A DNA stretch of 46,650 bases from Aromatoleum evansii (GTDB taxonomy: Bacteria; Pseudomonadota; Gammaproteobacteria; Burkholderiales; Rhodocyclaceae), in contig NZ_WTVK01000044.1 in assembly GCF_012910805.1 (NCBI RefSeq), positions 1 to 46,650 of the forward strand. The letters are read 5' to 3'. This document shows positions 395 to 29,737 of this stretch, in pieces. The notes under the pieces are model-generated. The model was not told the DNA's origin. It made no database searches and worked only from the letters and a program-made list of their open reading frames with translations. Positions within the stretch are counted from its first letter, which is position 1. The number at the start of each line of letters is the position of its first letter. A program made the translations under genes and the position numbers.

Positions 395-417
395 GACGGG
401 TCGCTCCGGAGGCCGGT

Positions 418-1680: not shown

Positions 1681-2094
1681 TCGTATTGTCTCCTCGGTCT
1701 TGGACTGTCGTTGCCGACAGCGGCCGCAGCGGATGGCGGCTTCATGGGAAGAGATGTTAGGAAGTTCGCCCGGGGCGCTTTTGCCTGTATCCGTCACGCG
1801 TTTGCTTGATATGGACCGAAGGCGAGGAACGGAATCCCCGCCCCAGGCGCCCTGCCGTTTCAGCCCGCCGCGAATTCCTGGGGTGGATGTGCCGAAGGCG
1901 ACATGCGTCGCATGTGGCAATGCAAGGGGGGCGGAAGCATTCGGGAATGGCTCCAGGCACAAGGAATGCTGTATCGTCCGGGCCACCCGACACAGCCCCC
2001 TGAATGCCGACATGCATTGTCTGTCACCCCCCGGCACGATCCACCTGCTCCGCCGTGCTGGACAGAGAGCCGGCACCGATGGCCATACACGTTC
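1681..2094. other. Intergenic region between glyA and the DUF3592 gene
   Basis: This 414-nt stretch separates two divergent genes and should hold both promoters. No gene with a family match is visible. On the minus strand two TGTCG pentamers (2008-2012 and 1988-1992) lie 20 bp apart. This recalls the 21-bp repeats near the creatinine genes but lacks the GA-WA positions. I find no convincing riboswitch or terminator. Confidence 0.5.
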
Positions 2095-16616: not shown

Positions 16617-17338
16617 GGGCGTTCGCGTGGAACCGGAGTGAAGCGGTATCCGGCCCCGTGCACGGTCAGGATCACTTTCGGGCTTGCGGGGTCGTCCTTC
16701 AGCTTGCGGCGCAGGCGGCCGACCAGCACGTCCACGGTGCGGTCGCTCGGCACCCATTCGCGGTTGCGGATCTGGTCGAGCAGCTGATCGCGGCTCATCG
16801 TCCGGCCGGGATGACGGAGAAAGGCTTTCAGGAGCTGGAACTCACCCTCGGTGAGCTCGGCCTCGACGCCCGACGCATCGACGAGCTGGCGGCGGTCGGG
16901 GTGCAGCGTCCAGGCGCCGAACGCCACCTCCTTCGCGCGCGCGGTGCCGGGAGACATCGACCTGGACTGTTTCACGCGCCGGATAAGGTTCTTCGCCCGC
17001 GCAAGGATCTCCCGCGGGTTGAAGGGCTTGGTCACGTACTCGTCCGCCCCGCACTCGAGGCCGACGATGCGTTCGATCTCGTCCTGCTTGCCCGACACGA
17101 GGATGATGCCGACTTCGCTATTCACGCGGAGCTCGCGCGTCAGGGTCAGCCCGTCCTTGCCCGGCAGCCGGATGTCGAGCAACACGAGGTCGATGTTCTC
17201 CCCCGCGATAAGGTCCTCCGCCTCCTCTGCGGTCGCCGCGCACAGGACACCAAAGTCCTCGGCCGCGAAGTACTCCGCCAGGCAGTTTCTGGTCACGGGG
17301 TCGTCATCGACCACCAGCACGATTGCTTCACCGGCCAC
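16613..17338 (-). CDS. OmpR/TorR family response regulator
   Basis: A 241-residue two-domain regulator. The receiver (about 5-118) has acidic residues DDD11-13, phospho-acceptor Asp55 in LLDIRLPGKDG and Lys104 in YVTKPF. The C-terminal winged helix (about 137-237) ends VHGAGYRFTP. GIILVSGKQDEIERIVGLECGADEYVTKP is close to TorR as I recall it. The start is a GTG (17336-17338) with AGGAG about 10 nt upstream; no in-frame ATG fits. It is the first gene of the unit with the binding protein and the hybrid kinase. Its targets are not evident. Confidence 0.93.
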   Translation of the reverse strand: MAGEAIVLVVDDDPVTRNCLAEYFAAEDFGVLCAATAEEAEDLIAGENIDLVLLDIRLPGKDGLTLTRELRVNSEVGIILVSGKQDEIERIVGLECGADEYVTKPFNPREILARAKNLIRRVKQSRSMSPGTARAKEVAFGAWTLHPDRRQLVDASGVEAELTEGEFQLLKAFLRHPGRTMSRDQLLDQIRNREWVPSDRTVDVLVGRLRRKLKDDPASPKVILTVHGAGYRFTPVPRERP

Positions 17339-18039: not shown

Positions 18040-19284
18040 TTAGCGACGGATGATGTTGTGCTCCGGCCCGTACTTGAAGCCGGTGATGTTCTCTGCGCCG
18101 TCCTTGGTCACGACCAGGATGTCGTGCTCGCGGTAACCGCCCGCACCCGGCATACCTTCGGGCAGCATGATCATCGGCTCGATCGACACGACCATGTTCG
18201 GCTCGAGCACCGTCTCGATGTCCTCGCGGAATTCGAGGCCGGCCTCGCGGCCGTAGTAGTGCGACAACACGCCGAACGAGTGGCCGTAGCCGAAGGTGCG
18301 GTACTGCAGCAGGCCGTGCTCGGCGAAGATCTCGTTGAGCTGGGCCGCGACGTCGCAGCAGCGAATGCCCGGCTTCACGAGCTTGAGGCCGGCTTCGTGC
18401 ACCTTGACGTTGACCTCCCACAGCTTGAGCGAGGCGTCGTCGCAGTGGTCGAAGAACATCGTGCGCTCGAGCGCCGTGTAGTAGCCGGAGATCATCGAGA
18501 AGCAGTTCAGCGACAGGATGTCGCCCTTCTGCACCTTGCGCGTGGTCACCGGGTTGTGCGCGCCGTCGGTGTTGATGCCCGACTGAAACCAGGTCCAGGT
18601 GTCCATCAGCTCCGAATCCGGGAAGCGCTTGGCGATCTCGCGGATCATCGCCTGCGTCGAGGCCAGCGCCACCTCGTGCTCGGGCGCGCCCTCATGCACC
18701 GCCGCCGCGAGCGCCGCACCGCCGACGTCGCACACCTGCGCGCCGTGCTTGATCAGCGCGATTTCCTCGTCCGACTTGATCATGCGCATGCGCATCGTCG
18801 GCGCGCCGATGTCGGTCAGCGTGACGTTGGGCAGCGCGGCCTTGAGCTTTTCCAGGCGCTCGACAGGGATGTGGTCGTATTCGACGCCCACACGGCCCTT
18901 GTTGGCGATCTCCTGCTGGATCGCGCGGAAGTAATTGTCACGGCGCCAGTCGGTGTAGACGATGTTGTAGTCGCCCACGGTGCGGCGCCACGGCTGCCCG
19001 CCGTCGATGTTGGCGCTGATCGACACGACCTTGTCCTGCGTCACCACCAGGCCGTAGGGGCGGCCGAAGGAGCAGTACAGGAAGTCGCTGTAGTAGTTGA
19101 TGTTGTGCATCGACGTGAACAGCACCGCATCGATATTGTTGTCGGCCATGTACTTGCGCAGCTTGGCCTGGCGGTTGTGATACTCCTGCTCCGAGAAGGT
19201 GTGCTTCACCTTCTCGCCGTTCTCGATGCGCAGCAGGTCCTTCATCTCCGAAATCGACTGAATGCCGGTAACCAGATTCGTCAT
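18040..19284 (-). CDS. Creatinase (creatine amidinohydrolase)
   Basis: Hydrolyses creatine to sarcosine and urea in the cytoplasm. The 414-residue protein has the pita-bread fold of the M24 family but works without metal. His243 in SGINTDGAHNPVTT is the expected general acid/base and Glu369 in VVSIEPMIMLPEG a guanidinium contact. Long stretches match the Pseudomonas enzyme as I recall it: HNINYYSDFLYCSFGRPY, DGGQPWRRTVGDYNIVYTDW, ELMDTWTWFQSG, FGYGHSFG. The ATG at 19282-19284 is chosen because AGGAG lies 9 nt upstream; an ATG six bases earlier would be too close. It has its own candidate activator site and -10 at 19368-19431 and sits between the ABC operon and ridA. Confidence 0.95.
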   Translation of the reverse strand: MTNLVTGIQSISEMKDLLRIENGEKVKHTFSEQEYHNRQAKLRKYMADNNIDAVLFTSMHNINYYSDFLYCSFGRPYGLVVTQDKVVSISANIDGGQPWRRTVGDYNIVYTDWRRDNYFRAIQQEIANKGRVGVEYDHIPVERLEKLKAALPNVTLTDIGAPTMRMRMIKSDEEIALIKHGAQVCDVGGAALAAAVHEGAPEHEVALASTQAMIREIAKRFPDSELMDTWTWFQSGINTDGAHNPVTTRKVQKGDILSLNCFSMISGYYTALERTMFFDHCDDASLKLWEVNVKVHEAGLKLVKPGIRCCDVAAQLNEIFAEHGLLQYRTFGYGHSFGVLSHYYGREAGLEFREDIETVLEPNMVVSIEPMIMLPEGMPGAGGYREHDILVVTKDGAENITGFKYGPEHNIIRR

Positions 19285-19367
19285 GTCCATCCGCTCCTGT
19301 TTGTTGTGGGGTGTTCCGAAAACCATCGCCGACCGCTTGAAGATTCGCGCAGCAGCAACGTGAGTCC

Positions 19368-19373
19368 ATGCTA
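19368..19373 (-). promoter_or_regulatory. Candidate -10 box of creatinase
   Basis: TAGCAT on the minus strand, 84 nt before the start codon and 16 nt after the direct-repeat site. The porin and NCS1 promoters have a hexamer at the same distance. Confidence 0.45.
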
Positions 19374-19389
19374 GAGAAGGGGCCGGGGC

Positions 19390-19431
19390 GCCGGTTTCCG
19401 CACTTCGACGGGCGTTTTCGTGAAAACGACG
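19390..19431 (-). promoter_or_regulatory. YGTCG direct-repeat operator of creatinase
   Basis: Read on the minus strand, two 21-bp half-sites follow each other: CGTCGT-N6-GA-AA-N5 (19431-19411) and CGTCGA-N6-GA-AA-N5 (19410-19390). It fits the layout of AraC/GlxA-family activator sites. Exactly 16 nt downstream lies the -10-like TAGCAT (19373-19368), with no good -35 box, as expected for an activator-dependent promoter. Confidence 0.7.
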
Positions 19432-19467
19432 ACCGCCGAAATCGCAGGTGAAGGCGCCCCGACGAGG

Positions 19468-20556
19468 TCAGGCCGCGCCCCCGAAAAAATGCGCGGCAGC
19501 CGCCGGCCAGGACGCCACGACCGAGTCGCCGGGCTGCAGGCCGAGGCAGTCGTAAGTCCTTTCGGGCAGGATCACCTTGAGATCGTCGTCGATGCCGGGA
19601 ACCTCGAGGAACAGCGTGACCATGTTGCCGATGAACTTGTGGCTCAGGAAACGCGCACGCACGTGGTTCTCGTGCCGCGGTTCGTCGCCGATCGCGATCT
19701 GGTCGGCATTGACGTAGAAATCCGCCTGGGCACCGTGCGAACCGGCGAAGTTGCCGCGCGACACACTCATGCCCCCGTTGGCCGTGTTGAGCCGCACGGA
19801 CTGCTCCCCGACTTCCGCCACGCTGCCCCGCAGGATCGTCACGTTGCCGATGAACTCGGCGACGAAACGGTTCGCTGGATGACGGTAGATCGCCTGCGGC
19901 GAACCGATCTGCTCCACCTTGCCGCGGCTCATGATCACCACGCGGTCCGCCATCGAGAAAGCCTCGGTCTGGCTGTGCGTGACGTACACGAAGGTGATCC
20001 CCAGTTCGCGCTGCAGCGAGCGCAGCAAGGCCTGCATGCGCACGCTGAGGTGAGCATCGAGTGCACTCAGGGGCTCGTCGAGCAGCAATACCTTGGGTTC
20101 GGTGACGAGCGCCCGCGCCAACGCGACCCGCTGCCGCTGGCCGCCCGAGAGTTGCATCACGTTGCGGCTCGCGAACTCGCCCAGCTCCAGTTTTTGCAGC
20201 CAGGCAAGCGAGCGCCGGTCCCGCTCCGGCTTCGCGACACCGCGCATCTTCAGTCCGAAGCCGACGTTGTCGAGCACACTCAGGAAGGGGAACAGCGCGA
20301 GGCTCTGCCACACCAGCGGCAAATCACGCCCCCACGGCGGCAGCCCCTTCTGCGAACGGCCTTCGAGACGGATCTCCCCGGCGCTCGGCTCCTCCAGCCC
20401 GGCGAGCATGCGCAGCATGGTCGTCTTGCCGCAGCCGCTCGAACCCATGATCGCCAGGAACTCGCCCTGCCCGATGCTGAACGAGGTCTCGGTCACCGCC
20501 GTGTAGTCGCCGAACCTCTTCGATACGCGATCGATCTCTACCAGTGCTTCACTCAT
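19468..20556 (-). CDS. potA: Polyamine-type ABC transporter, ATP-binding protein
   Basis: A 362-residue ATPase of the spermidine/putrescine class. Walker A GSSGCGKTT (about 37-45), signature LSGGQRQR, Walker B VLLLDEPLSALD and the switch His in VYVTHSQTEA are all present. The last 110 residues form the TOBE domain. It energises the two permeases just upstream (8-nt gap). The substrate group (PotD-type) includes cationic amines; creatine is a plausible substrate given the next gene, creatinase. The ATG at 20554-20556 gives MSEALVEIDRVSKRFGDYTAV; a much longer open frame upstream is a shadow of the permease genes. Confidence 0.93.
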   Translation of the reverse strand: MSEALVEIDRVSKRFGDYTAVTETSFSIGQGEFLAIMGSSGCGKTTMLRMLAGLEEPSAGEIRLEGRSQKGLPPWGRDLPLVWQSLALFPFLSVLDNVGFGLKMRGVAKPERDRRSLAWLQKLELGEFASRNVMQLSGGQRQRVALARALVTEPKVLLLDEPLSALDAHLSVRMQALLRSLQRELGITFVYVTHSQTEAFSMADRVVIMSRGKVEQIGSPQAIYRHPANRFVAEFIGNVTILRGSVAEVGEQSVRLNTANGGMSVSRGNFAGSHGAQADFYVNADQIAIGDEPRHENHVRARFLSHKFIGNMVTLFLEVPGIDDDLKVILPERTYDCLGLQPGDSVVASWPAAAAHFFGGAA

Positions 20557-20564
20557 GGTCGTTC

Positions 20565-21419
20565 TCACAAGGACAAACCGTTGTTGGATACCAGCGTGCC
20601 GCACGCTGGCTGCGCGGGAGCGTCGGCGGCAGCGCGTTTCGCCTTGCCCATGCCGGAAAACGCCATCCCGATCGCGACGAGGAGGATCGAGGAGGTGAAT
20701 ACCGCCGTGCCGATGGCATTGATCACCGGACTGACCTGCCCCTGCAGGAACACCAGCACGCGCACCGGCACCGTCTCGTTGAGGCCCGACACGAACCACG
20801 CGACCGCGAACTCGTCGAACGACACCGCGGCGGTGATCAGGAACGCGGCCACCAGGCTCTGCTTGCAGAATGGAAGGACCACGTACCACAGCGTCTGTAC
20901 GGGCGTGGCGCGGAGATTCCACGACGCCTCCTCCAATGCGCTGTCCATCTGCGCGAGACGCAGCCGGATCATCGCCATCGCGAAGGGCAAGGCGATGACC
21001 ACATGGCTGATCAGCACGGCCCAGATCTCGCCGGCGAGGCCGATGCGCGAAAGGTAGGACAGCATCCCCAGGCCCATGATGACGGCGGGGATCGTCGGCG
21101 GCAGCAGCATCAGCAGGCTGAACAGCGACTTGCCGCGAAAATTGAAGCGGAAGTCGCAGTAGGCCGCGCAGAAGCCGAGAATGGTCGATATCAGTGCCAC
21201 CGGGATCGACACCATCACGCTGCGCTGGAACGACTCGATCACCAGCGGATCGGTGAAGGTGCCGCCGTACCAGTCCGTCGTGAACCCTTGCAGCGGCAAG
21301 GACGGGAAGCGGTCCGCGTTGAACGAGAAGACCAGGCTGGCGACGATGGGCGCCATGATGAAAATGAAGGTGTAGCCCGTGTAGGCCCACCCGAACCAAC
21401 GACCAAGTCTGAGCATCAT
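20565..21419 (-). CDS. potC: Polyamine-type ABC transporter permease (PotC-like)
   Basis: A 284-residue inner-membrane permease with six hydrophobic segments. The EAA loop reads EEASWNLRATPVQTLWYVVLP. It begins with ATGATG overlapping the stop of the other permease gene (ATGA, 21416-21419), so the two are translationally coupled. It pairs with the PotB-like subunit and the PotA-like ATPase. The frame runs on to 21512 but that is inside the previous gene. Confidence 0.92.
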   Translation of the reverse strand: MMLRLGRWFGWAYTGYTFIFIMAPIVASLVFSFNADRFPSLPLQGFTTDWYGGTFTDPLVIESFQRSVMVSIPVALISTILGFCAAYCDFRFNFRGKSLFSLLMLLPPTIPAVIMGLGMLSYLSRIGLAGEIWAVLISHVVIALPFAMAMIRLRLAQMDSALEEASWNLRATPVQTLWYVVLPFCKQSLVAAFLITAAVSFDEFAVAWFVSGLNETVPVRVLVFLQGQVSPVINAIGTAVFTSSILLVAIGMAFSGMGKAKRAAADAPAQPACGTLVSNNGLSL

Positions 21420-22258
21420 TTGCGCCTCCCGTAGGCAAGCCGCACCGCCGCGAGGGACGTGAGGACGAGGGTCAGGATCATCATGATCGCGACCACCGCG
21501 GCCCTCGGCCATTGCTGGCCGGACTTCGTGGTATCGATGATCAGGTTGCTCAGGGTCGGCGGAGCGCCGCCGCCGAGATAGGTCGGCGCGACGAAGTCGC
21601 CGAAGGCGAGGATGAACGCGAACAACGCGCCGACGACCAGCGAAGGCTTGGCCAGCGGGATGATCACCTCGAACAGGGTGCGCACCGGCCCCGCGCGCAG
21701 GTTATGCGCCGCCTCGATCAGGTTGCGGTCGATCTGCGCAAAACCCATCGTCTGCACCAGCGTCACGAGCGGCAGCGCCAGGGTCACGTAGCCGACCAGA
21801 GAGCCGAAGTCCGAATTGAGCATCGGCAGACCGTCCAGGCCGAAGAGCCCGAGCAAGGCATTGACGATGCCGTTATCGGACAGGAAGGCCTGCCACGAAT
21901 ACACGCGCACGAGATAGCTGGTGAAGAACGGCACCACCAGGAACATCAACGCCAGCTTGCGCGTGCGCTCCGACACGGTGAACGCCAGGCTGCAGGCGGC
22001 AGGAAAGGAACAGCAGGTCGTGACGACCGCCGCCCCCAGGGCCAGCGCCCAGGTGTGGCTGTATGCCGACCAGAAAGAGCTGCGACTGAGCATGAAGTCC
22101 CAGTTCTTCAGGGTCATGTCCGGCTCGAGGCGGAAATTGACGACGCTCCAGAACGAAATGACGAAAAGGAAGAGCAGTGGCAGCAGGAAGAATGTGAGCT
22201 GCCACAGCAAGGGAGGCAGCAGCAGGGGCCACCTCCTACGGCTGGTGTTCGACGACAT
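21416..22258 (-). CDS. potB: Polyamine-type ABC transporter permease (PotB-like)
   Basis: A 280-residue inner-membrane permease with six hydrophobic segments. The EAA loop is EAAHNLRAGPVRTLFEVIIPLAKPS. It lies 59 nt after the binding-protein gene and overlaps the second permease by 4 nt. It forms the translocation pore with PotC for the solute delivered by the PotD-like protein. Confidence 0.92.
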   Translation of the reverse strand: MSSNTSRRRWPLLLPPLLWQLTFFLLPLLFLFVISFWSVVNFRLEPDMTLKNWDFMLSRSSFWSAYSHTWALALGAAVVTTCCSFPAACSLAFTVSERTRKLALMFLVVPFFTSYLVRVYSWQAFLSDNGIVNALLGLFGLDGLPMLNSDFGSLVGYVTLALPLVTLVQTMGFAQIDRNLIEAAHNLRAGPVRTLFEVIIPLAKPSLVVGALFAFILAFGDFVAPTYLGGGAPPTLSNLIIDTTKSGQQWPRAAVVAIMMILTLVLTSLAAVRLAYGRRK

Positions 22259-22317
22259 GGCGATGGCTCCGGGATGTCGCCGGACGGACGCGGGTCCGCC
22301 CGGCGTTGCGGGAAGGC

Positions 22318-23472
22318 TTAGGCCTTTTCCTTGTACTCGGACCAGAAGTCGTTCCAGTCCTCGATGCTCTGCTGCACGGGCAGCTGGCGGAACGTGATCT
22401 TCCCGGAGCGGATGTCATCCATGACGTTGTGCCCTTGCAGCACCATCCCCTGGCGGCGCGCCTCGGCCGGGTCGCTCTGCCCCAGCAGCTCCCAGCCCTT
22501 GCGGTTCGGGATCAGCGCCGGATACGCCGCCATCTTCGCGGACTTCACCTGCCCCTGCGCGGAGGTGACGTACTGGATGAAGGCCTTGGCAAGATCAGCG
22601 TTGCGCGTGCCCTTGCCGATCGACAGCGACTCGGTCCATTGCAGGCCGCCCTCGTCCGGAACAACCGAACTGACCTTGGCCCCCGAGCGCGCCAGCGTGC
22701 CGGTGATCCAGTCGCCGATGCCGCACACCAGTTGCAGTTGCCCGTTCTTCAGGCCGCTGAAGGTGCCGCCGTAGTCGAAGAAACCCGCGACCTGCGGACG
22801 CAGGGACTTCATGACGCTCTGGAGCTTGGCGAACTGCTCCTTCTCCAGCTTGTAGGGCGCCTTGTGGCCGGCGTAGAGGCTGATCTCCCCCATGTTCGGC
22901 AGGTACCAGTCGAAGTGCCCGACCTTGCCCTTGTACGCCGGATCCCAATACACCTTGAACGAGCGCGCCTTGCTCTCCGGCACCGCATCCGTGTTGTACG
23001 CGACCCCGAGGAAGCCGAAGCGGACCATCACCGCGTAGAGGTCGTTGCCGTCCCAGTGCCCGGGGAACTTCTGGAACTCGGGGAAATAATCGTCGAACGC
23101 ATAGTCCTTCGCGTCGAGGCGCTCGAGGTAGCCCGCCTTGCGCAGCTGCGGCACGTACTCCGCGTCGGACAGGATCAGGTCGTAGGTGCCGGCTGGCGAC
23201 TGCGAGATCAGCGCCAGCATGTTGTCGCCGCCGGTGTAGTACTTCGGCTTCACCTTGACATTGTGCTTCGCCTCGAACTCGGCAACGATGTCCGGTTCCG
23301 CGTGGCCGTACCACGCAAGCATCGTCAGGGTGCGCGGCTGGCCTCCCGCTTGCGCAAGGCTGTTCGCGGAAACGAGCGACAGCGGCAATGCGCCGCCCAC
23401 TGCGAGGGCGCCGCTGCCCTGCAGGAAGCGGCGGCGGAGCGGCGACTGCAGGTTCTTGTCTTCCTCTTTCAT
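22318..23472 (-). CDS. potD: Polyamine-type ABC transporter substrate-binding protein (PotD-like)
   Basis: A 384-residue periplasmic binding protein. The ATG at 23470-23472 has AAAGGAGACC upstream. The N-terminus carries a twin-arginine type signal (PLRRRFLQGSGALAVGGALPLSL), so it may be exported folded by Tat. The mature part has PotD features: TMLAWYGHAEPDIVAEFE, YDLILSDAEYVPQLRKAGYLE, VRFGFLGVAYNTDAVPES. It heads the potDBCA-like unit and follows the Tsx-like porin gene. The ligand may be creatine or creatinine given the neighbours; a polyamine is the default for the family. Confidence 0.92.
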   Translation of the reverse strand: MKEEDKNLQSPLRRRFLQGSGALAVGGALPLSLVSANSLAQAGGQPRTLTMLAWYGHAEPDIVAEFEAKHNVKVKPKYYTGGDNMLALISQSPAGTYDLILSDAEYVPQLRKAGYLERLDAKDYAFDDYFPEFQKFPGHWDGNDLYAVMVRFGFLGVAYNTDAVPESKARSFKVYWDPAYKGKVGHFDWYLPNMGEISLYAGHKAPYKLEKEQFAKLQSVMKSLRPQVAGFFDYGGTFSGLKNGQLQLVCGIGDWITGTLARSGAKVSSVVPDEGGLQWTESLSIGKGTRNADLAKAFIQYVTSAQGQVKSAKMAAYPALIPNRKGWELLGQSDPAEARRQGMVLQGHNVMDDIRSGKITFRQLPVQQSIEDWNDFWSEYKEKA

Positions 23473-23509
23473 TTTGGTCTCCTTTGGCACGAACGGTTCG
23501 GCGGCCATG

Positions 23510-23523
23510 GCTGCTATTGCAGC
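23510..23523 (-). promoter_or_regulatory. Palindromic element upstream of potD
   Basis: GCTGC-TATT-GCAGC is a perfect inverted repeat 38 nt before the potD start. A similar sequence lies 48 nt before the porin gene, and in both TTCCGG stands 16-18 nt further upstream on the minus strand. It may be a shared promoter or operator. Confidence 0.45.
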
Positions 23524-23612
23524 TCTCTTGATCCGCCGGAAATGTTTGCAACACGATCGCGACCAGCCGCGCACGCCCTTGCGGGCGGGCGCCGATCACG
23601 AATTGCGGGAAG

Positions 23613-24446
23613 TCAGAAATTCCAGCGCACCAGCAGCGTCGGAGTCGTGCGCGAATAGGTGCCGCCGCCCTCGCCTGCAGTCTTGCTGTAGGTCGCGTAT
23701 TCGTGGCGGTAACCGACGTCAAAATGCTTGTTGAGCTTCAGCCATAGGTCAGGCTGAACGAAGACGGTGTTGTCGCGCTGCTTGTTGTTGAAATTGACAA
23801 GCAACAAGGGGGACCAGGTGAACTTGAGGCCGCCGATCTCGAACGGCAGCATTGCGAAGGTGCGCCAGAACAGGGTGTGGATATCCTTTCCGCCATCGCC
23901 GGTAAACCTCGCGCTGCGAGCGTAGAGATCGGTTTCGAAGAAGCTGAAACCGGGCACTTTCAGGTCAACCGCAATACCGAAATTATTGGCGCGGAAATTC
24001 GCATAGGAGCCCCGCTCGAGTCGCGCCGCGAGATACACATCCTGGATGAAACCGAACGAGAGATTCGCGCCGGTGATCTTGGAGAGGCTCAAGCGCGGAT
24101 TGAACACCCCGAAGTACTGATCCTTCGTCTGCTCGCCGAAGGAACCGGCACCGAACCCGAAGAAGCTGCCCACCTCCTTGCCGTGATAGGTATCGAAGAA
24201 GAAATAATTGTCGCCGTATTCATGCACACCGAAATGCTCGAGGCGAACGGTGGTCAGTTTCTTGTCTGCAGTTCCGGTGCCGAACACGGGATCGAATTTG
24301 GATTCGGTCGTATAGCCGACGGTGAGGTTGGTGTTCTGCCAGCTTTCCGTGGCGAATGCGCTTTTCCCCGCTGTCATTCCAAGGGCGACGCAACAACCCG
24401 CAATGAATGCGGCGCCGGATTTCCGTCCAATGGCCTTGCTCATCAT
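23613..24446 (-). CDS. Tsx-like outer-membrane channel protein
   Basis: A 277-residue beta-barrel protein. It has a signal peptide (about residues 1-32, ending SAFATES) and alternating aromatic strands (DNYFFFDTYHG, LSFGFIQDVYLAAR), and it ends with a C-terminal Phe (LVRWNF), the recognition mark for outer-membrane assembly. It resembles the nucleoside-specific Tsx channels and the related DUF5020 proteins. It lies directly upstream of the PotD-like binding protein in the same direction and has the YGTCG repeat in its long upstream region. It probably admits creatinine or creatine through the outer membrane (inference). The start ATG has AAGGAAAG before it. Confidence 0.78.
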   Translation of the reverse strand: MMSKAIGRKSGAAFIAGCCVALGMTAGKSAFATESWQNTNLTVGYTTESKFDPVFGTGTADKKLTTVRLEHFGVHEYGDNYFFFDTYHGKEVGSFFGFGAGSFGEQTKDQYFGVFNPRLSLSKITGANLSFGFIQDVYLAARLERGSYANFRANNFGIAVDLKVPGFSFFETDLYARSARFTGDGGKDIHTLFWRTFAMLPFEIGGLKFTWSPLLLVNFNNKQRDNTVFVQPDLWLKLNKHFDVGYRHEYATYSKTAGEGGGTYSRTTPTLLVRWNF

Positions 24447-24493
24447 TCGCTTTCCTTTGGTGTGAATTTCATTGTTTTGATTACCGGGACATG

Positions 24494-24507
24494 ACCGCTA
24501 TTGCAGT
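24494..24507 (-). promoter_or_regulatory. Palindrome-like element upstream of the porin gene
   Basis: ACCGC-TATT-GCAGT, one mismatch from a perfect inverted repeat, 48 nt before the porin ATG. It matches the element at 23510-23523 in ten consecutive core bases (GCTATTGCAG). Confidence 0.4.
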
Positions 24508-24663
24508 TCTCATATGGCATCCCGGAATATCTGATACCGCTCGACGCGCGAATCGATCTGCGAGAATCCCTCCTCCTTGAACGAGAGTCGCATTGCGCCA
24601 GCGGCGCCCCCCCCCTGATCCGACTTGTTTGTTGCTGTACTTTTTCCGGATCCGGTGGAGCCA

Positions 24664-24669
24664 AGTATG
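24664..24669 (-). promoter_or_regulatory. Candidate -10 box of the porin gene
   Basis: CATACT on the minus strand, 16 nt after the direct-repeat site. This is the same spacing as at creatinase and the NCS1 permease. Confidence 0.4.
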
Positions 24670-24685
24670 GAAATGCACGGCCTCC

Positions 24686-24727
24686 AGGCATTTCCTGATA
24701 TCGACAGCTGTTATCGTGTTGCCGACA
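24686..24727 (-). promoter_or_regulatory. YGTCG direct-repeat operator of the porin gene
   Basis: On the minus strand TGTCGG-N6-GA-TA-N5 (24727-24707) is followed by TGTCGA-N6-GA-AA-N5 (24706-24686). Both 21-bp half-sites fit the consensus seen before creatinase and the NCS1 permease. Confidence 0.65.
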
Positions 24728-24852
24728 TGGATCTATTGCCGAAACATGCGTAGAAATCGATCTCCAACAGCAAAGCCGACAGCAAACGGGCGGTGCTGAT
24801 TGCGATCGAATCGGAACCGGAGGACGAGCCGAAAACAAGGGTCGTAAACGCA

Positions 24853-24893
24853 AATCGGCCCTGCCGCGTTATCAAACGCAGGCAGGGCCGATT
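24853..24893 (-). terminator. Terminator hairpin after creatininase
   Basis: AATCGGCCCTGCC (24853-24865) pairs perfectly over 13 bp with GGCAGGGCCGATT (24881-24893). A second hairpin CATGGCGGC/GCCGCCATG (24898-24918) lies between it and the stop codon. The T tract is short. Confidence 0.7.
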
Positions 24894-24924
24894 CGTTCAT
24901 GGCGGCCAGGCCGCCATGGGTGTT

Positions 24925-25695
24925 TCAGTCGAATGCGGTCATCAACTCCTTGCTTATGCCATCCACGCAGACCTTCAGCAGGGTCTCGCCATGCTGGGCG
25001 CTGGCGCGCTTCGCCGATGACAGGCAACCCGAAGCCGGCGTCCATTCCGGCTTGATCGGGAAGAAGTCATAGGGCGGGAATTGCGCCGGCGCGTGGTCGC
25101 ACACCTTGTGCATATCGACCAGATGCGGATGCAGATGCAGCATCAGAGAGGTCTCGAGCACACCGCCGTGCTCGACCGCCCAGCCCGGAAATTCGCCTTG
25201 ATAGATCGCATCGATCGCGTCCTGGGTCACGAAATCCCAATACGACAGGACGACGGTGGAAAAATCGCGGATACCGTCCCAGCGCAATTCGCGCTGCGCC
25301 AGATCCACCCCTTCGACGATGAATGCGGAGTTCTCGTAATGGCCATTGACCAGCACCGTGTGGCGCACGCCGTGACGCGCAAGCTCCTTGAGCACGTCGC
25401 GAATCGTGCACGTCACCGTCATGCCGTCGAGGCTCGTCGTCCCCGGCATGTGATTGCCGCCCCCGCTCTTCTGCTGCGACTTGTAGCCATACGCGATCGG
25501 CGGGGCGACGAGTGCGCCGATACGATCGGCGACGCGCTCCGAAATTGCCGTCGGCAGCAACACATCGGGGTTCATCGACATGTGGGGGCCGTGCTGTTCG
25601 AGTGCGCCGACCGGGATCAACACCGGGGTCCGCCCGTCGCGGACCCGGGCATCGTATTCCGGCCAGGCGAGCTCGGAAATATGCACACTCTTCAT
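24925..25695 (-). CDS. Creatininase (creatinine amidohydrolase)
   Basis: Opens the creatinine ring to creatine in the cytoplasm using two metal ions. The 256-residue protein has the expected ligands Glu33, His35 (ALEQHG), Asp44, His119 and Glu121 (VNGHYENS), one lower than Pseudomonas numbering as I recall it. It also has YGYKSQQKSGGGNHMPGTTSLDG, VVLSYWDFV and EHGGVLETSLM, all typical of true creatininases rather than of MftE or formamide hydrolases of the same family. The ATG at 25693-25695 has AAGGAGACG upstream. It lies 80 nt after the NCS1 permease gene with a hairpin between, so the two probably share a transcript. Confidence 0.95.
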   Translation of the reverse strand: MKSVHISELAWPEYDARVRDGRTPVLIPVGALEQHGPHMSMNPDVLLPTAISERVADRIGALVAPPIAYGYKSQQKSGGGNHMPGTTSLDGMTVTCTIRDVLKELARHGVRHTVLVNGHYENSAFIVEGVDLAQRELRWDGIRDFSTVVLSYWDFVTQDAIDAIYQGEFPGWAVEHGGVLETSLMLHLHPHLVDMHKVCDHAPAQFPPYDFFPIKPEWTPASGCLSSAKRASAQHGETLLKVCVDGISKELMTAFD

Positions 25696-25713
25696 GAAAT
25701 CGTCTCCTTGTTC

Positions 25714-25755
25714 CGGCCCGACCACCCGCCCTTGCGGCGAGCGGGTATCGGGCCG
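25714..25755 (-). promoter_or_regulatory. Hairpin between NCS1 permease and creatininase genes
   Basis: Outer arms CGGCCCGA and TCGGGCCG and inner arms ACCCGC and GCGGGT form one nested stem around an 11-12 nt loop. It fills most of the 80-nt gap and has no T tract. It may set the ratio of the two products by mRNA processing or stability. Confidence 0.5.
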
Positions 25756-25775
25756 TTCTTGTCAATCAATGCCGC

Positions 25776-27158
25776 TCACGCGCGTTTCAGCATCCGTGAT
25801 TGTGCCGGCACGCCCTTCACGGCAACCAGCAACAGGTAGGTCACCGCGGTGACTGCAATGGCGGGCAGCGAGGCCGTGGTCACGATGGCTATTTCCTTGA
25901 ACCCGTAGTGCAGCAGGTAGAACACCGCCAGCCCGACGATCATGGCCACCCAGCCGCAGATGTTCCAGTCGCCCAGCGCGCTCTTGGTGCGACCAAGGCT
26001 GTCCTCGCCGGCAAACAGATCCTCGTCGCGGACACGCGCACGGCGCACCACGAAATAGTCGAGCACGACCAGGGTCCACAAGGGGATGAAGATACCGCCC
26101 ACGATCCCGAGGAAGAACTCGAAGTAGTGGATGAAGCTGTCGAACACGAGCGGCAGGAAGCACATGACCAGCTGCAGGATCGCGATGAAGTACAGGAACT
26201 TGCGCGGATTCGACGTGCGCGAGGCACCGACCAGCCCCATGCCTGCACCATACAGGACGGTCACGTTGGTACTCACCGTGGCGAAGAAGACCACCAGGAA
26301 GGCCACCACGCCGAGGCCGAGCGAAGCGATCGTCGAGCTCGGATCGGCATTGTTCGGATCGAAGACACCCGTCTGGAGTACGACGCCGATGACGCCGATG
26401 GCACCGACGATCATGAACCAGCCCTGACCGAGGTTAACACCGATCCAGCTGCCAATGGTCGCCGAAGCGGAGTTCTTCGAGAAACGCGAGAAATCGCAGA
26501 TCTGCGCCCAGCCCCAGCAGAAACCGAAGGCGAGGTCGATGTAGAACGCCGGCGAATGCTGCGCGGCAGGCAGCGTGAAGTTGGCGATCTTGTCGTAGTC
26601 CCAGTGCTCGAGCACGACCTTCGTTTCCCAGACGCCGAGGACGAGCAGCAGAACGACCGCCAGCCATTCCAGGTACTTGATCGCGCTGTGTCCGATGCAC
26701 ACGATGATGCCCTGCAGCAGCGCCGTCACGAGGATGCCGGCCACGAGCGGCCAGGTCGAGCCGGGCGAACCGTAGGCCGGCCAGTCGAACATCGCGTGGA
26801 ACACGTGCGTCAGCGAGATCGCGGCAATGAAGGTGTTGATGCTGGGCCAGCCGATCAGCCCGAAAAATTCGCCGATCCCCATGAAGCGCGCACCCTTCAC
26901 CCCAAGCGCGGGAATGGTCGATGTCACGGTGGAGGCCCCGTGCTTCCATCCGATCCACGCCACCATCGCCCACGGGATCATCATCAGCGGCAGGTACACC
27001 GCGCTGTACCACCACACGAACGACATCCCCAGGGCCGCCGCCATGCCGCCGAACACCCACGATCCCGTATTGACCCCGGAACCGAACCACGTGAATACCG
27101 TGTCGACGAACCCGTATTCCCGCTTGTCGTGCGGGATCCTTGCCGTACCGTACTCCAT
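25776..27158 (-). CDS. NCS1 family permease (CodB-like), probable creatinine importer
   Basis: A 460-residue inner-membrane carrier with about 12 hydrophobic segments. It belongs to the nucleobase:cation symporter 1 family that takes up cytosine, hydantoins, allantoin and similar small rings: FTWFGSGVNTGSWVFGGMAAALG near the start and GFCWGWAQICDFSRFSKN in the middle. Creatinine is a similar five-membered ring, and creatininase follows in the same transcript, so creatinine uptake is the best inference. The ATG at 27156-27158 has an ideal AAAGGAGG site. A YGTCG repeat and a -10 lie about 150-210 nt upstream. Confidence 0.9.
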   Translation of the reverse strand: MEYGTARIPHDKREYGFVDTVFTWFGSGVNTGSWVFGGMAAALGMSFVWWYSAVYLPLMMIPWAMVAWIGWKHGASTVTSTIPALGVKGARFMGIGEFFGLIGWPSINTFIAAISLTHVFHAMFDWPAYGSPGSTWPLVAGILVTALLQGIIVCIGHSAIKYLEWLAVVLLLVLGVWETKVVLEHWDYDKIANFTLPAAQHSPAFYIDLAFGFCWGWAQICDFSRFSKNSASATIGSWIGVNLGQGWFMIVGAIGVIGVVLQTGVFDPNNADPSSTIASLGLGVVAFLVVFFATVSTNVTVLYGAGMGLVGASRTSNPRKFLYFIAILQLVMCFLPLVFDSFIHYFEFFLGIVGGIFIPLWTLVVLDYFVVRRARVRDEDLFAGEDSLGRTKSALGDWNICGWVAMIVGLAVFYLLHYGFKEIAIVTTASLPAIAVTAVTYLLLVAVKGVPAQSRMLKRA

Positions 27159-27306
27159 CGTACTGCCTCCTTTGTAGTGGTCCTGCTGTCTTGTATTTGT
27201 TATGCGACTCCCCGCCCGCAGGGGGAGCCGGGCATGCCGGGAGTCTTGAGTCGCCCCGGTCATGCTCCGCGCCCGTCGTCTTCATCGGCGGGCCGTATTT
27301 GAGACT

Positions 27307-27312
27307 ATCGTA
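27307..27312 (-). promoter_or_regulatory. Candidate -10 box of the NCS1-creatininase operon
   Basis: TACGAT on the minus strand, 16 nt after the direct-repeat site. This predicts a leader of about 140 nt. Confidence 0.45.
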
Positions 27313-27328
27313 GATGCGACCACTGCGT

Positions 27329-27370
27329 GTCGATATCCGACGCCCGACACGGATTTTCGCGAAACCGACG
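27329..27370 (-). promoter_or_regulatory. YGTCG direct-repeat operator of the NCS1-creatininase operon
   Basis: On the minus strand CGTCGG-N6-GA-AA-N5 (27370-27350) is followed by TGTCGG-N6-GA-TA-N5 (27349-27329). A 7-bp inverted repeat CGTGTCG/CGACACG (27326-27351) overlaps the second half-site. Confidence 0.65.
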
Positions 27371-27468
27371 CAAGAAAAACCTCCGACCGAGACCGGCCGG
27401 AGGCTTGCAACCCGGTCGCGGAACGACCGTGGGAGAGGGGGATCAGGAAGCGGCGCGACGCGTGCCGG

Positions 27469-28491
27469 TCATTTCGACCCGGCCGCGTCCGTCGTCTGGC
27501 GCCGCCGCTCGGCGCTCGGCGAGATGCCGAAACCGGCGTGGTAGCGATGCGAGAAGTGCGCGAAGGAGACGAAGCCGCAAGCCATCACGATGTCGGCGAT
27601 GGGGCGGTTGGTGCGCGTCAGGAGTTGGCGCGCGCGCTCCAGGCGAATCTGCAGGTAGTACTGACGCGGCGTGCAGTTCAGGGTCTCGCGGAACAGGCGT
27701 TCGAGCTGGCGCGCCGAGAACTGCATGTGCGCGGCGAGCTCTTCCATCGAGAGTGGCTCCTCGATGTTGCACTCCATGATCTTGATCGCCTCGACGAGCT
27801 TGGGATGCGATGCGCTGGAGACGTCGCGCAGCGAGGTCTTCTGCTTCTCGTCCGGGCCGCGGGTCTCGTAGATCAGCAGTTCGGCCACCGCCTTGGCGAC
27901 CTTGCGGCCGCCCCCGCCGAGGCCGATCAGGTGGATCATCATCTCCACCGGCGCGATGCCGCCACTGCACGAACAGCGGCTGCGGTCGACCTCGTAGATC
28001 TTGTTCGACACGACCAGGCGCGGGAAGCGGTCGAGCAGCGCGTCCATGTCCTCCCAGTGGATGGTGGCGCGATAGCCGTCCAGCAGTCCCGCGCAGGCGA
28101 GGAAGTAGCTGCCGGTATCCACCCCGCCGAGCGCGACACCCCGCCCGGCGAGCGTGCGCAACCAGCGCTGGATGGGCTCGGTGCCGGTAATCGGCAAGGG
28201 ATTCGGCCCCACCACGAAGACGCCATCGAGCTCGACCGCATCGGCGGCTGCGCAGTCCGGCTGCACGCACACACCGGCGCTCGATCGCACCGGCTGGCCG
28301 TCCATCGTGATCGTCACGAACTCGTACAGCTTCCTGCGCGCCACCATGTTCGCAAGGCGCAGGGGATCGATTGCGGCGCCAAAGCCGATCAGCGTGAAAT
28401 CGGGAACAAGAAGAAAACCGAAACGGATCGGCGCATCGCCGCCTCGTCCGGCCCAGTGGCCCGGCCCCTGGCCGGGAGTCGCATTGCTCAT
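27469..28491 (-). CDS. GlxA-type AraC family transcriptional regulator (second copy)
   Basis: A 340-residue regulator with a DJ-1/PfpI-like domain (about residues 24-200) and an AraC double helix-turn-helix (about 230-325; LSMEELAAHMQFSARQLERLFRETLNCTPRQYY and IADIVMACGFVSFAHFSHRYHAGFG). The elbow reads GGVDTGSYFLACAG, without a nucleophilic Cys, so it probably binds a ligand. The recognition helix SARQLERLFR is close to that of GbdR as I recall it (SRRQLERLFQ). It sits between purU and the NCS1-creatininase operon and is the better candidate for the creatinine/creatine-responsive activator. The ATG at 28489-28491 is taken; a TTG one codon earlier is possible. Confidence 0.9.
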   Translation of the reverse strand: MSNATPGQGPGHWAGRGGDAPIRFGFLLVPDFTLIGFGAAIDPLRLANMVARRKLYEFVTITMDGQPVRSSAGVCVQPDCAAADAVELDGVFVVGPNPLPITGTEPIQRWLRTLAGRGVALGGVDTGSYFLACAGLLDGYRATIHWEDMDALLDRFPRLVVSNKIYEVDRSRCSCSGGIAPVEMMIHLIGLGGGGRKVAKAVAELLIYETRGPDEKQKTSLRDVSSASHPKLVEAIKIMECNIEEPLSMEELAAHMQFSARQLERLFRETLNCTPRQYYLQIRLERARQLLTRTNRPIADIVMACGFVSFAHFSHRYHAGFGISPSAERRRQTTDAAGSK

Positions 28492-28578
28492 CAAGATACC
28501 CTGAAAGTCGTAATTCCTTTTCCAAGTCTATAGCACTGCCGCCGCCATCAAGACGCCGGCAGGCGGGAATCGGTACGC

Positions 28579-29448
28579 TCAGGGCAGGACGACCGTCCGG
28601 GTGCCGTTGAGGAATATACGGCGCTCGATATGGAAGCGCACGGCGCGCGCCAGCGCCTGGCACTCCATGTCGCGGCCGACCGTGAGCAGTTGCTCGGCGC
28701 TGTGCGCATGCGTCACGCGCTCCACGACCTGCTCGATGATCGGCCCCTCGTCGAGATCGCCGGTCACATAGTGGGCCGTCGCCCCGATCAGCTTCACGCC
28801 GCGCTCATGCGCCTGGTGATAGGGCTTCGCCCCCTTGAATCCCGGCAGGAAGGAGTGATGGATGTTGATCGCGCGGCCATGCAGACGCCGGCACAGATCG
28901 TCGGTCAGCACCTGCATGTAGCGCGCCAGCACCACCAGCTCGGCCCCCGTTTCCTCGACGATCGCCATCAGCTTCGCTTCCTGCTGCGCCTTGGTTTCCG
29001 CGGTCACGGGAAGATGGTGGAAGGGCAACCCCTCGGCCACCGCGAGGTGCTCGAGATCGGGGTGATTCGAAACCACGGCGACGATGTCGATGGGCAGTTC
29101 GCCAATACGCCAGCGGTAAAGCAGGTCGCGCAGGCAGTGATCGAGCTTCGACACCATGATCAGGACCTTTGGGCGCTCGCACAGCGCGTGCATCGCCCAG
29201 TCCATGCCGAAACGTTCCGCCAGCGGCGCGAACTCGCGACGCAGGGTCGCGACGTCGATCGCTCCCTCGGTTTCATGGCTGAAGACGCAGCGGACGAAGA
29301 AACGGTCGTTCAGCTCGTCGTCGAAACACGAGTACTCGTTGATGTAGCACCCCTGACGATCGAGGAAGCCCGAAATCGCGGCGACCTGGCCTGCGGCGCT
29401 GGGGACCGAAACGGTCAGCGTCCAGCGCTTCTCTTGTGAGTTGTGCAT
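28579..29448 (-). CDS. purU: Formyltetrahydrofolate deformylase
   Basis: Hydrolyses 10-formyl-THF to formate and THF, recycling folate when much one-carbon material enters. The 289-residue protein has an N-terminal ACT domain (about 8-85; WTLTVSVPSAAGQVAAISGFLDRQGC) and a C-terminal formyltransferase fold with the catalytic NIHHSFLPGFKGAKPY and the Asp in HYVTGDLDEGPIIEQ. It has an excellent AGGAGGAG site. In many bacteria purU accompanies sarcosine oxidase genes, which fits this locus. A YGTCG repeat lies right upstream. Confidence 0.95.
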   Translation of the reverse strand: MHNSQEKRWTLTVSVPSAAGQVAAISGFLDRQGCYINEYSCFDDELNDRFFVRCVFSHETEGAIDVATLRREFAPLAERFGMDWAMHALCERPKVLIMVSKLDHCLRDLLYRWRIGELPIDIVAVVSNHPDLEHLAVAEGLPFHHLPVTAETKAQQEAKLMAIVEETGAELVVLARYMQVLTDDLCRRLHGRAINIHHSFLPGFKGAKPYHQAHERGVKLIGATAHYVTGDLDEGPIIEQVVERVTHAHSAEQLLTVGRDMECQALARAVRFHIERRIFLNGTRTVVLP

Positions 29449-29474
29449 GTCTCTCCTCCTGTTATGCGTCGTAA

Positions 29475-29516
29475 AGTTACGTCAGACATACGACACCGAC
29501 TTGTCTGCACGCGACA
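29475..29516 (-). promoter_or_regulatory. YGTCG direct-repeat operator of purU
   Basis: On the minus strand TGTCGC-N8-AA-N5 (29516-29496) is followed by TGTCGT-N6-GA (29495-29475), 21 bp apart. Each half-site deviates from GA-WA in one part. The site ends 27 nt before the ATG, closer than at the other genes, so its geometry differs; TAACTT just after it could be the -10. Confidence 0.5.
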
Positions 29517-29737
29517 ACTGATCCACGATTTTTACCGCGCAGCAGGCGGGGGGGGCCGAGCGCCTCGGACTACTTCTTGATACTGCCTGGCATTGGCAAA
29601 GAGCTCGTCGTCATTCGCCCGGACGGTGGGGCGGAATCCCGCGTTGAATGCGGCCGCTCCGTCTCGAAGTCATTGAAGCGCTGCTGGCGTGTTGAGGTCG
29701 CCGTGGTGGTCGAGGCCTCGCATGGACCTGGCGAGAA

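Follow-up and report, generated by a model that had tools for sequence, protein, structure and literature searches.

Predicted tandem operators and a GATase1-type AraC regulator at the creatine and creatinine genes of Aromatoleum evansii

Introduction

The creatine and creatinine genes of Aromatoleum evansii raise the question of whether their promoters carry a common operator and which regulator would bind it. A sequence-only reading of the window, the whole stretch of 46,650 nucleotides analysed here, had noted four pairs of YGTCG pentamers on the minus strand, before creatinase, porin, NCS1-creatininase and purU genes, had likened them to the ArgR box of Pseudomonas and had ascribed them to one of two GlxA-type proteins acting as activator. 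By genome comparison we found predicted operators of fixed geometry, which are conserved and co-occur with one of these proteins, GATR2; that GATR2 is the binder, and that it activates rather than represses, we infer. The genes concerned are as follows.

418..1680, - strand: glyA, serine hydroxymethyltransferase (PF00464; NF000586 above cut-off)
18040..19326, - strand: creatinase (PDB 1chm creatine amidinohydrolase, E 1.6e-203)
19468..23574, - strand: ABC transporter (Pfam), with binding protein 22318-23574, permeases 21416-22258 and 20565-21512, and ATPase from about 20562 to 19468
23613..24446, - strand: Tsx-like outer-membrane channel, the porin (PF03502, E 9.4e-9)
24925..25725, - strand: creatininase (TIGR04448, 356 bits against a cut-off of 235)
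25776..27263, - strand: NCS1-family permease (PF02133)
27469..28494, - strand: GATR2, GlxA/GbdR-like AraC-family regulator (GbdR model, E 1.7e-102)
28579..29448, - strand: purU, formyltetrahydrofolate deformylase, directly upstream of GATR2 (TIGR00655 above cut-off)

Creatinase likely starts at the ATG at 19290, behind AGGAG. The frame 27443-28663 was tried as the regulator and rejected; Pfam found nothing on it because it is not the gene, which is 27469-28494.

Results

Tandem boxes in the genome

All four pentamer pairs were present as the sequence-only reading had placed them, 21 bp apart, and TAGCAT, CATACT and TACGAT indeed start exactly 16 nt behind the 42-bp sites of the first three pairs; GA at positions 13-14 and WA at 15-16, each counted there in six of eight half-sites, occur in seven of eight. 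The bare pentamer pair alone is weak evidence. The window holds 12, of which 8 lie outside the four noted sites, where dinucleotide shuffles average 2.53, and the 5.94-Mb genome holds 1109 against 600 for a reversed-pattern control, so that YGTCG-N16-YGTCG was rejected as a genome marker. Since 21 bp equal seven codons, coding repeats would in our reading supply many of these pairs.

The genome-wide frequency check, which had been proposed along with the claim, came out differently for the extended pattern YGTCG-N7-GAWA-N5-YGTCG-N7-GAWA, that is, YGTCG-N7-GAWA twice, 21 bp apart, with 18 scored positions. It has three exact matches in the whole genome, at the creatinase, porin and NCS1-creatininase promoters of this one cluster. 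No match has one mismatch and 10 have two; with as many as three allowed, there are 120 against 52 for the control. Within the window, the three found at up to three mismatches are all perfect (shuffle mean 0.22), and a looser GNWA form at up to three mismatches gave 24 against 4.72 expected, perfect only at the same three promoters. The GAWA block was derived from these very sites, so the independent evidence is their conservation in relatives. That the pattern is a chance product of GC-rich, codon-periodic sequence, as the abundance of bare pairs in genome and window might suggest, has next to no probability: exact extended matches stand at three promoters only, the sites are kept across two genera despite rearranged gene order, and both facts argue strongly against chance at three of the four sites. 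These three, with the hexamers behind them, are:

19390..19431, - strand: operator 1, creatinase promoter; two direct half-sites YGTCG-N7-GAWA 21 bp apart, exact pattern match
19368..19373, - strand: -10-like hexamer TAGCAT, by sequence, 16 nt after operator 1
24686..24727, - strand: operator 2, Tsx-like porin promoter, exact pattern match
24664..24669, - strand: -10-like hexamer CATACT, 16 nt after operator 2
27329..27370, - strand: operator 3, promoter of the NCS1 permease-creatininase operon, exact pattern match
27307..27312, - strand: -10-like hexamer TACGAT, by sequence, 16 nt after operator 3

Operator 2 probably also serves the ABC transporter behind the porin. All ten two-mismatch matches lie outside the cluster; the surroundings of four, on C99, C198, C232 and C122, were scored with a matrix built from the three strong promoters (whose own scores of 44-50 bits are therefore inflated), and these were rejected as extra regulon members. 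The C99 site, before the genome's GbdR ortholog, reached 17.4 bits, has no -10-like hexamer at 16 nt and is taken for a GbdR site; C122 reached 6.7 bits, and C198 and C232 stayed below 5 bits.

Conservation and co-occurrence in relatives

The operators, and the -10-like hexamer 16 nt downstream, are kept in Aromatoleum and Thauera despite changed gene order. Operator 1 was found in 18/18 genomes compared, with 0-3 of 18 positions mismatched, followed at the same distance by TAGCAT in 17 of the 18 rows and TACCAT in one. Operator 2 occurs in 15 of 18 genomes, moving with the porin where gene order differs, with CATACT in 15/15 rows; the missing rows are G009 (no porin found in the stretch examined) and T108 and T109 (short contigs). 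The operon that lies directly behind the regulator has a site in all 10 genus genomes having the regulator, with no mismatch in 8, one in G014 and three in G009, and TACGAT, TAGGAT or TAGCAT follows in 10/10 rows. The first gene of this operon varies, being ABC-ATPase-like in G009, creatininase in G001 and creatinase in G014, where two tandem sites precede creatinase and one was counted in each class.

For the creatinase, NCS1, porin and purU promoters, respectively, the top-base fraction was 0.94, 0.96, 0.94 and 0.83 in the motif columns, 0.53, 0.61, 0.51 and 0.50 in the 60 bp upstream, and 0.99, 0.93, 1.00 and 0.90 in the hexamer, these being means on sites picked by best match. The rows are related (T105-T107 closely), so the counts are not independent events; they leave out second-copy loci of the same genomes (e.g. 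L041, L043-L045, L047) and the second creatinase copy of L105, whose site has three mismatches.

Across 17 genus genomes, 27 matches with at most one mismatch lie at creatine clusters, spread over nine of the ten GATR2-bearing genomes; in the tenth, G009, no site reaches this threshold and the best have 2 and 3 mismatches. Outside the clusters such matches number 7 in the ten GATR2 genomes and 3 in the seven without it, and the reversed control gave 1 across all 17. Of the 17, 10 have a close GATR2 as well as a close creatinase, and the other 7 have neither. Among the 15 exact matches listed from 150 genomes, 14 stand at creatine clusters; the remaining one is in G075, where the best GATR2 match reaches only E 2.6e-24.

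Creatinase adjoins GATR2 in Thauera loci, and GATRs in Burkholderiaceae, where each of the five creatinase promoters read shows GTC half-sites in tandem, spaced 21 bp and differing from the pattern at 3-5 positions, with TACCAT, TACTAT or TAACAT 15 nt after them. A Paraburkholderia fungorum plasmid carries creatininase, permease, porin, a GlxA regulator, creatinase, glyA, serine ammonia-lyase and sarcosine oxidase in one array. In the order sample a close creatinase is present in 3 of 399 genomes, source genome included; in both of the others a GATR (48 and 50% identity) lies next to it and the proximal position reads YGTCG, their sites differing at 6 and 4 positions, mostly in the distal half. 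In Acinetobacter the regulator next to creatinase does not join the GATR2 clade, and the site there differs from the pattern at 5 positions. A class sample comprised 18 genomes, the source genome included, and 18 other, distant creatinase loci of this sample, L170-L187, gave no GATR2 match in their short flanks. Before their creatinases the best sites have 3-7 mismatches and none is claimed (L186 is too short upstream). The short flanks of a 67%-identical creatinase locus of the same family (G082) likewise gave no GATR2 match, and beside the plasmid regulator of Pseudomonas sp. MPC6 no creatinase is annotated in the stretch examined.

The purU-regulator promoter

The fourth site had been placed at 29475-29516. 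Its upstream half, 29496-29516, is conserved in relatives; its downstream half, 29475-29495, is not, and this register was rejected. Moving the pair one repeat upstream restores the 16-nt rule of the predicted operators:

29496..29537, - strand: operator 4, purU-regulator promoter; proximal half 29496-29516 conserved, distal partner 29517-29537 degenerate here
29474..29479, - strand: -10-like hexamer TAACTT, by sequence, 16 nt after operator 4

In this genome alone the earlier register fits the motif letters better (4/18 mismatches against 8/18), because the distal half of the corrected site has decayed here. The proximal TGTCG is present in 14/14 purU rows, and TAACTT, TACCTT, TAATTT, TAACGT or TAAGGT follows in all of them; the distal half, absent from the window copy, reads YGTCG in 9 and YGTC in 12 of the 14. 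In G014 the half-site and TAACTT precede the regulator though no purU was found beside it, and before GATR2 at three loci (G012, G015, T111) the purU-type site is absent. The sequence could instead be an inverted-repeat operator (TTGTC-N7-GACAA) of some other regulator: in the window TTGTCGCGTGCAGACAA forms a perfect dyad, whose conservation is more even than that of the other half-sites. We regard this as unlikely, as one arm is broken without compensation in 3 of the 14 rows (AGGCAA in G003 and T109, AGAAAA in T108), and YGTC lies 21 bp upstream in 12/14 and a TAA/TAC-type hexamer at 16 nt in 14/14.

The glyA promoter

The glyA promoter, which the sequence-only reading had missed, is probably a fifth promoter of the regulon.

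1776..1817, - strand: candidate operator 5, glyA promoter, with weaker halves GGTCC...GCAA and TGACG...GCAA
1754..1759, - strand: -10-like hexamer TAACAT, by sequence, 16 nt after candidate operator 5

At 7.0 bits (strong sites 44-50) it is the one further match in the window to score more than 6 bits with the matrix. Of 13 close glyA copies that were aligned, 12 have the proximal TGACGGATACAGGCAA and 10 the distal GGTCC, and TAACAT, TAATAT, TACCAT or TAAGAT follows in 13/13; three more distant copies, own or of relatives (77-78% identity), had no visible site. In a complete relative glyA heads a glyA-sdaA-soxBDAG operon, which consumes sarcosine. A similar site also precedes GbdR-linked glyA copies, linkage to GbdR or to creatine genes being assigned here by contig and neighbourhood. 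In four genomes with both assigned copies the creatine matrix gave 4.8 to 7.5 bits to creatine-linked and -6.8 to -15.8 bits to GbdR-linked promoters, with most of the difference in the distal half's second block, GCAA against GCAC; in a fifth, G001, it did not separate the two copies, which carry no assignment (3.5 and 2.4). The source genome has a duplicated glyA promoter, one copy near each of two regulators.

Choice of the regulator

The sequence-only reading had left open which of the two GlxA proteins is concerned. GATR2 has an N-terminal DJ-1/PfpI (GATase1)-like domain and a C-terminal AraC HTH, as GATase1-like AraC (GATR/GlxA) proteins do, with PDB matches to 3gra, the N-terminal part of an AraC regulator (residues 21-209), isonitrile hydratases (22-153) and the 3oio HTH (227-333). 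By the NCBIfam cut-off it is not GbdR: it scores 343 bits over residues 22-336, below the cut-off of 480, which the protein at C99:65832-66899 passes with 549. It groups with three creatinase-adjacent Burkholderiaceae regulators (support 100/99), and a close ortholog is present in 10/10 genus genomes with close creatinase and 0/7 without.

Grouping and distribution favour GATR2, and not GATR1 (12392-13453), as the putative binder. GATR1 was rejected as the common binder because G002, which keeps three operators, has no close relative of it; the sole G002 match to GATR1 at E <=1e-50 is GATR2 itself, so that neither a close GATR1 nor a GbdR-type copy exists there at that threshold. The idea that the operators are bound chiefly by some other paralog (the GbdR ortholog on C99, GATR1 or the one on C144) draws on the 12 GbdR-model matches at E <=1e-25 among 21 listed in the genome, on the site two mismatches away before the GbdR ortholog and on GATR1 being near the cluster both here and in G005 and G009 (97% identity). 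The G002 case makes it quite improbable, as does, more weakly, G012, which keeps all three operators and has no C144-type copy among the 14 of 26 candidates scored. The boxes of these paralogs are much alike, the GbdR site being only two mismatches off, so cross-binding is possible.

Proposed mechanism

We consider it likely that the tandem sites are operators of GATR2 as a class II activator of a creatine/creatinine regulon. Two GATR2 subunits would sit on two direct half-sites (YGTCG-N7-GNWA) 21 bp apart, triggered by a pathway ligand, most likely creatine. The promoter-proximal half ends at the -35 position (about -49 to -34 for a transcription start 7 nt behind the hexamer), and among -35 candidates at spacers of 16-18 none exceeds 3/6 to TTGACA. 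As no promoter has a good -35, GATR2 would replace this element and recruit RNA polymerase. The bound protein might also be imagined to repress, or to activate from upstream as class I, as the related CdhR is described to do in P. aeruginosa (PMC5806209). This we hold to be very unlikely, since the bases at 16 nt are -10-like in 43/43 rows of three promoters and the proximal half extends to the -35 position, where there is no -35 box, which suits class II. Under class II activation GATR2 and its ligand would turn on uptake (porin, ABC transporter, NCS1 permease), creatininase and creatinase; GATR2 would drive purU together with its own gene, and glyA would probably also be under its control. 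A search of five leaders against Rfam gave no match.

Discussion

On the whole the sequence-only reading was right, its observation partly confirmed and its interpretation partly supported; the shared GlxA/AraC-type operator and the creatine/creatinine regulon gained strong support from genome comparison. What had been an impression of sequence has become a specific, testable regulon of three strong and two weaker promoters with one regulator and a fixed geometry, which adds predicted creatinine uptake genes for Aromatoleum and relatives and may be of use as a creatine- or creatinine-responsive promoter. More tentatively, many GATR paralogs may work on nearly one box, separated by a few positions, with a single creatine sensor commanding everything from uptake to one-carbon disposal along with its own gene; the duplicated glyA promoter near two regulators offers a way to ask how paralogs with near-identical operators avoid cross-talk.

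The box and the regulator are of a known kind, that of ArgR, GbdR and CdhR and, for creatine, CahR. CahR of Pseudomonas putida was described by Hinkel et al. in 2022 as a transcriptional regulator of creatine use; it is reportedly an AraC protein of GlxA/GATase1 type that creatinase expression requires, with a direct regulon that is said to be essentially the creatinase promoter. By gene neighbourhood and by its grouping with other creatinase-adjacent GATRs, that of Acinetobacter excepted, GATR2 would be of CahR type. Unlike in the reported CahR regulon, the box stands here at three strong and two weaker promoters, those of creatininase and uptake genes included.

The published ARG box of Pseudomonas ArgR, an AraC-family protein, is TGTCGC-N6-G-N-AA in tandem, 5 bp apart (PMC10963909), and the half-sites here share its tandem arrangement, register and 21-bp repeat. 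The likeness already claimed holds for register, G13, W15, A16 and the 5-bp gap (3/3 strong sites) but fails for C6 (0/6 half-sites); unlike the ArgR box, position 1 is C or T, C6 is not required, and the genes are for creatine rather than arginine. CdhR of P. aeruginosa has GGTCGC half-sites with a 15-bp spacer, hence a 21-bp repeat, and is, with GbdR, of the GATase1-AraC subfamily (PMC5806209), to which GATR2 also belongs. In contrast to CdhR with its described class I action, the geometry here suits class II, and GATR2 differs from GbdR in its score (343/480 bits) and in the separate GbdR ortholog on C99. Corynebacterium glutamicum controls its creatine genes through AmtR (PMC8864220); creatine use is likewise under transcriptional control there, but by a TetR-family nitrogen regulator of a type unrelated to GATR2.

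Operators of the creatine cluster

The features concerned are:
19390-19431, minus strand, operator of the creatinase promoter
24686-24727, minus strand, operator of the porin promoter
27329-27370, minus strand, operator of the NCS1-creatininase promoter
29496-29537, minus strand, purU operator as re-registered here
27469-28494, minus strand, GATR2, GlxA/GbdR-like AraC-family regulator and proposed activator
12392-13453, GATR1, second GlxA-type protein

The sequence-only reading had defined a candidate regulon by four pairs of YGTCG pentamers 21 bp apart. All four pairs were found where it placed them, but the pair alone is a poor marker: across the 5.94-Mb genome it occurs 1109 times, compared with 600 occurrences of a reversed-pattern control, and the window has 12, eight of these outside the four sites. 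When GAWA was also required at positions 13-16 of both halves, three exact matches were left genome-wide, namely the creatinase, porin and NCS1-creatininase promoters, with none at one mismatch and ten at two. Allowing up to three mismatches, we observed three matches in the window, all perfect, against a mean of 0.22 expected from shuffles. The second block, GAWA, and not the pentamer pair, is what distinguishes these sites. A matrix built from these same three promoters scored them at 50.3, 45.8 and 43.8 bits. Because GAWA was derived from the very same sites, conservation serves as the independent test.

We compared 18 genomes (Aromatoleum, Azoarcus sp., Thauera and bins), ten of the genus, own included, and eight Thauera or related bins; the rows were chosen by best match and are mutually related, so that the following figures overstate independence. 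The creatinase operator was present in 18/18 genomes and deviated from the pattern at 0-3 of its 18 positions; the hexamer 16 nt on was TAGCAT in 17 and TACCAT in one. The operator of the operon directly behind the regulator was kept in all ten rows of the genus, eight without mismatch, and the porin operator in 15 of 18 genomes, every one with CATACT at 16 nt. The latter travels with the porin through changes of gene order, and in Thauera, where creatinase lies directly behind the regulator, the creatinase operator stands between the two. Top-base frequency for creatinase, NCS1 and porin was 0.94, 0.96 and 0.94 in motif columns, 0.53, 0.61 and 0.51 in the 60 bp upstream flank, and 0.99, 0.93 and 1.00 in the hexamers. 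The distal halves of 19390-19431 and 27329-27370 also contain a near-palindrome, TTTCRCGAAA, intact in 8/10 NCS1 rows; most of the 18 creatinase rows have GCAA there, which breaks it, so it may be without meaning.

The purU site and a putative promoter of the regulator's operon

For purU the earlier register (29475-29516) is rejected, as its downstream half, 29475-29495, is not conserved in relatives, while its other half, 29496-29516, is conserved as TGTCG...CAGACAAGT, with CAGGCAAGT in two rows and CAGAAAAGT in one. The upstream partner, 29517-29537, carries YGTCG in 9/14 rows and YGTC in 12/14, but in the window this half has degenerated. All 14 rows have a TAACTT-like hexamer 16 nt past the re-registered pair; thus, with the pair shifted one repeat upstream, the exception to the 16-nt spacing becomes the rule. 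Motif columns reached 0.83 in top-base frequency versus 0.50 upstream. In the own genome alone, the earlier register is closer to the motif, with 4 mismatches versus 8 for the corrected one, and support for this operator is weaker than for the other three. A rival reading takes the site as a dyad, TTGTC-N7-GACAA, instead of a pair of GATR half-sites. G014, a genome of the genus, showed no purU next to its regulator; there the purU-type half-site and TAACTT stand directly before GATR2. Both were absent in G012, G015 and T111. We read the purU-type site as the putative promoter of the regulator's own operon.

A candidate glyA operator

The only further window position above 6 bits with the three-promoter matrix was:
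1776-1817, minus strand, candidate fifth operator, 7.0 bits

It ends 95 nt upstream of the glyA start (1680), with TAACAT 16 nt downstream. Among 13 aligned close glyA copies, the proximal half was TGACGGATACAGGCAA in 12 and the distal one GGTCC in ten, and all 13 had a TAA/TAC-type hexamer. Both types of glyA copy share this architecture, and membership of the creatine regulon hinges on a finer difference. Four genomes have both copies on assignable contigs (G000, the own genome, then G009, G005 and G003); in these, creatine-linked copies scored 7.0, 4.8, 6.9 and 7.5 bits versus -13.1, -15.1, -15.8 and -6.8 for GbdR-linked ones. Single copies gave 6.3 in G002 (creatine-linked), -2.7 in G012 and -5.0 in G010 (both GbdR-linked); two copies of unassigned linkage in G001 gave 3.5 and 2.4 bits, with no separation.

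Downstream of glyA in G002, in the same direction, are genes for serine dehydratase and sarcosine oxidase B, D, A and G. In the own genome the contig ends past glyA, and two small contigs, C39 and C40, carry sox genes, hence the glyA-sox link there is inferred. The glyA copies of the window contig and of contig C99 are near-identical (98%), and both contigs start about 420 bp beyond them; the assembly was probably broken by a duplication of the glyA-sdaA-sox operon (window 1-418, C99 start, C39, C40).

Which regulator acts

The genome has 12 matches to the GbdR model at E 1e-25 or better, among 21 listed. The GbdR ortholog proper is encoded on C99 (549 bits, cut-off 480), and GATR2, with a GATase1-like N-domain and an AraC HTH by PDB matches, stays below the cut-off at 343 bits. 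Close GATR2 and close creatinase occur together in the own genome and nine others of the genus, and both are missing in seven. At up to one mismatch, nine of the ten GATR2 genomes had three matches each at their creatine clusters, 27 altogether, and G009 had none there; outside clusters there were seven in these ten and three in the other seven. One exact match lies away from the clusters, in G075, which has no close GATR2. G002 keeps three operators, and a GATR1 search of it at E 1e-50 or better matched GATR2 and nothing else; GATR1 as the binder common to all sites is thereby rejected. A single clade (support 100/99) unites GATR2 orthologs with creatinase-adjacent regulators from plasmids of Burkholderia, Paraburkholderia and Caballeronia (one each); it is separate from GbdR, GATR1 and the C144 protein, with the Acinetobacter creatinase-adjacent regulator outside.

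GATR1 adjoins an NhaC-like gene (10759-12267) and an isochorismatase-like protein (9676-10434, minus strand) most similar to N-carbamoylsarcosine amidohydrolase (PDB 1nba, E 5.7e-72), the last step of the other route from creatinine to sarcosine; GATR1 may serve this branch. Between GATR1 and creatinase (13460-17338, minus strand) lie a sensor kinase, an SBP3-type protein and a response regulator, each with a relative near creatine genes in both G009 (locus L188) and a Thauera bin (L111).

More distant creatinase loci

All five Burkholderiaceae creatinase promoters examined have tandem GTC half-sites 21 bp apart, 3-5 mismatches from the pattern, and TACCAT, TACTAT or TAACAT 15 nt on. A P. fungorum plasmid carries the functions found here in a single array of creatininase, permease, porin, GlxA regulator, creatinase, glyA, serine ammonia-lyase and sarcosine oxidase. 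In the order sample, 3/399 genomes had a close creatinase, adjoined in the two besides the own by a GATR (48 and 50%); one locus, with 4 mismatches in total, has CGTCGGAAACAGGACAA followed by TAGGAT at 16 nt, and the other, with 6, has TGTCG at the position of the proximal half.

Three of the five Burkholderiaceae loci (L202-L204, L225, L226) show, a few bases ahead of the distal half-site, GTTAACCCT, possibly the site of a second regulator, and the remaining two GTAAACCCT and GTATACCCT; GGGTTAACCC lies upstream of creatinase in L223. In the plasmid collection, Klebsiella accounted for 264 and Acinetobacter for 103 of the 420 records with creatinase homologs (E 1e-50 or better), and one Acinetobacter record was covered for its regulator.

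Upstream of creatinase homologs of other families (57-63% identical; L180, L182, L183, L184, L185) we noticed a conserved leader with a hairpin around GATGGCGTCG, whose stem, by eye, varies on both sides between genomes. After it comes TCCTGTACGCC(C)GGA, or TGCACGCC in L184; in L182 this stands 200 nt farther downstream. The loop sequence, GGCGT, complements ACGCC. A pattern fitting three of the five leaders matched in 3/369 genomes of the class, always before these creatinases, and an Rfam search at E values up to 1 found nothing in the leaders. The element is a possible unknown riboswitch.

Proposed mechanism and comparison with known systems

In AraC class II activation the proximal site lies at the -35 position. 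Here the proximal half ends at that position and no good -35 is present, a geometry that would suit such activation. Creatininase scored above its curated cut-off and creatinase was identified by closeness to 1chm. By analogy with CahR, a published creatine regulator, the inducer would most likely be creatine; the purU and glyA-sox promoters would provide for disposal of the one-carbon and glycine output.

GATR2 is of the same kind as the GbdR/GATR regulators. The operator resembles the ArgR box (PMC10963909) and the CdhR box (PMC5806209). Within limited literature coverage, none of the publications listed dealt with the regulation of creatine use in Aromatoleum, Azoarcus or Thauera. What appears new relative to these systems is that the predicted regulon is broader and that there may be a specificity code.
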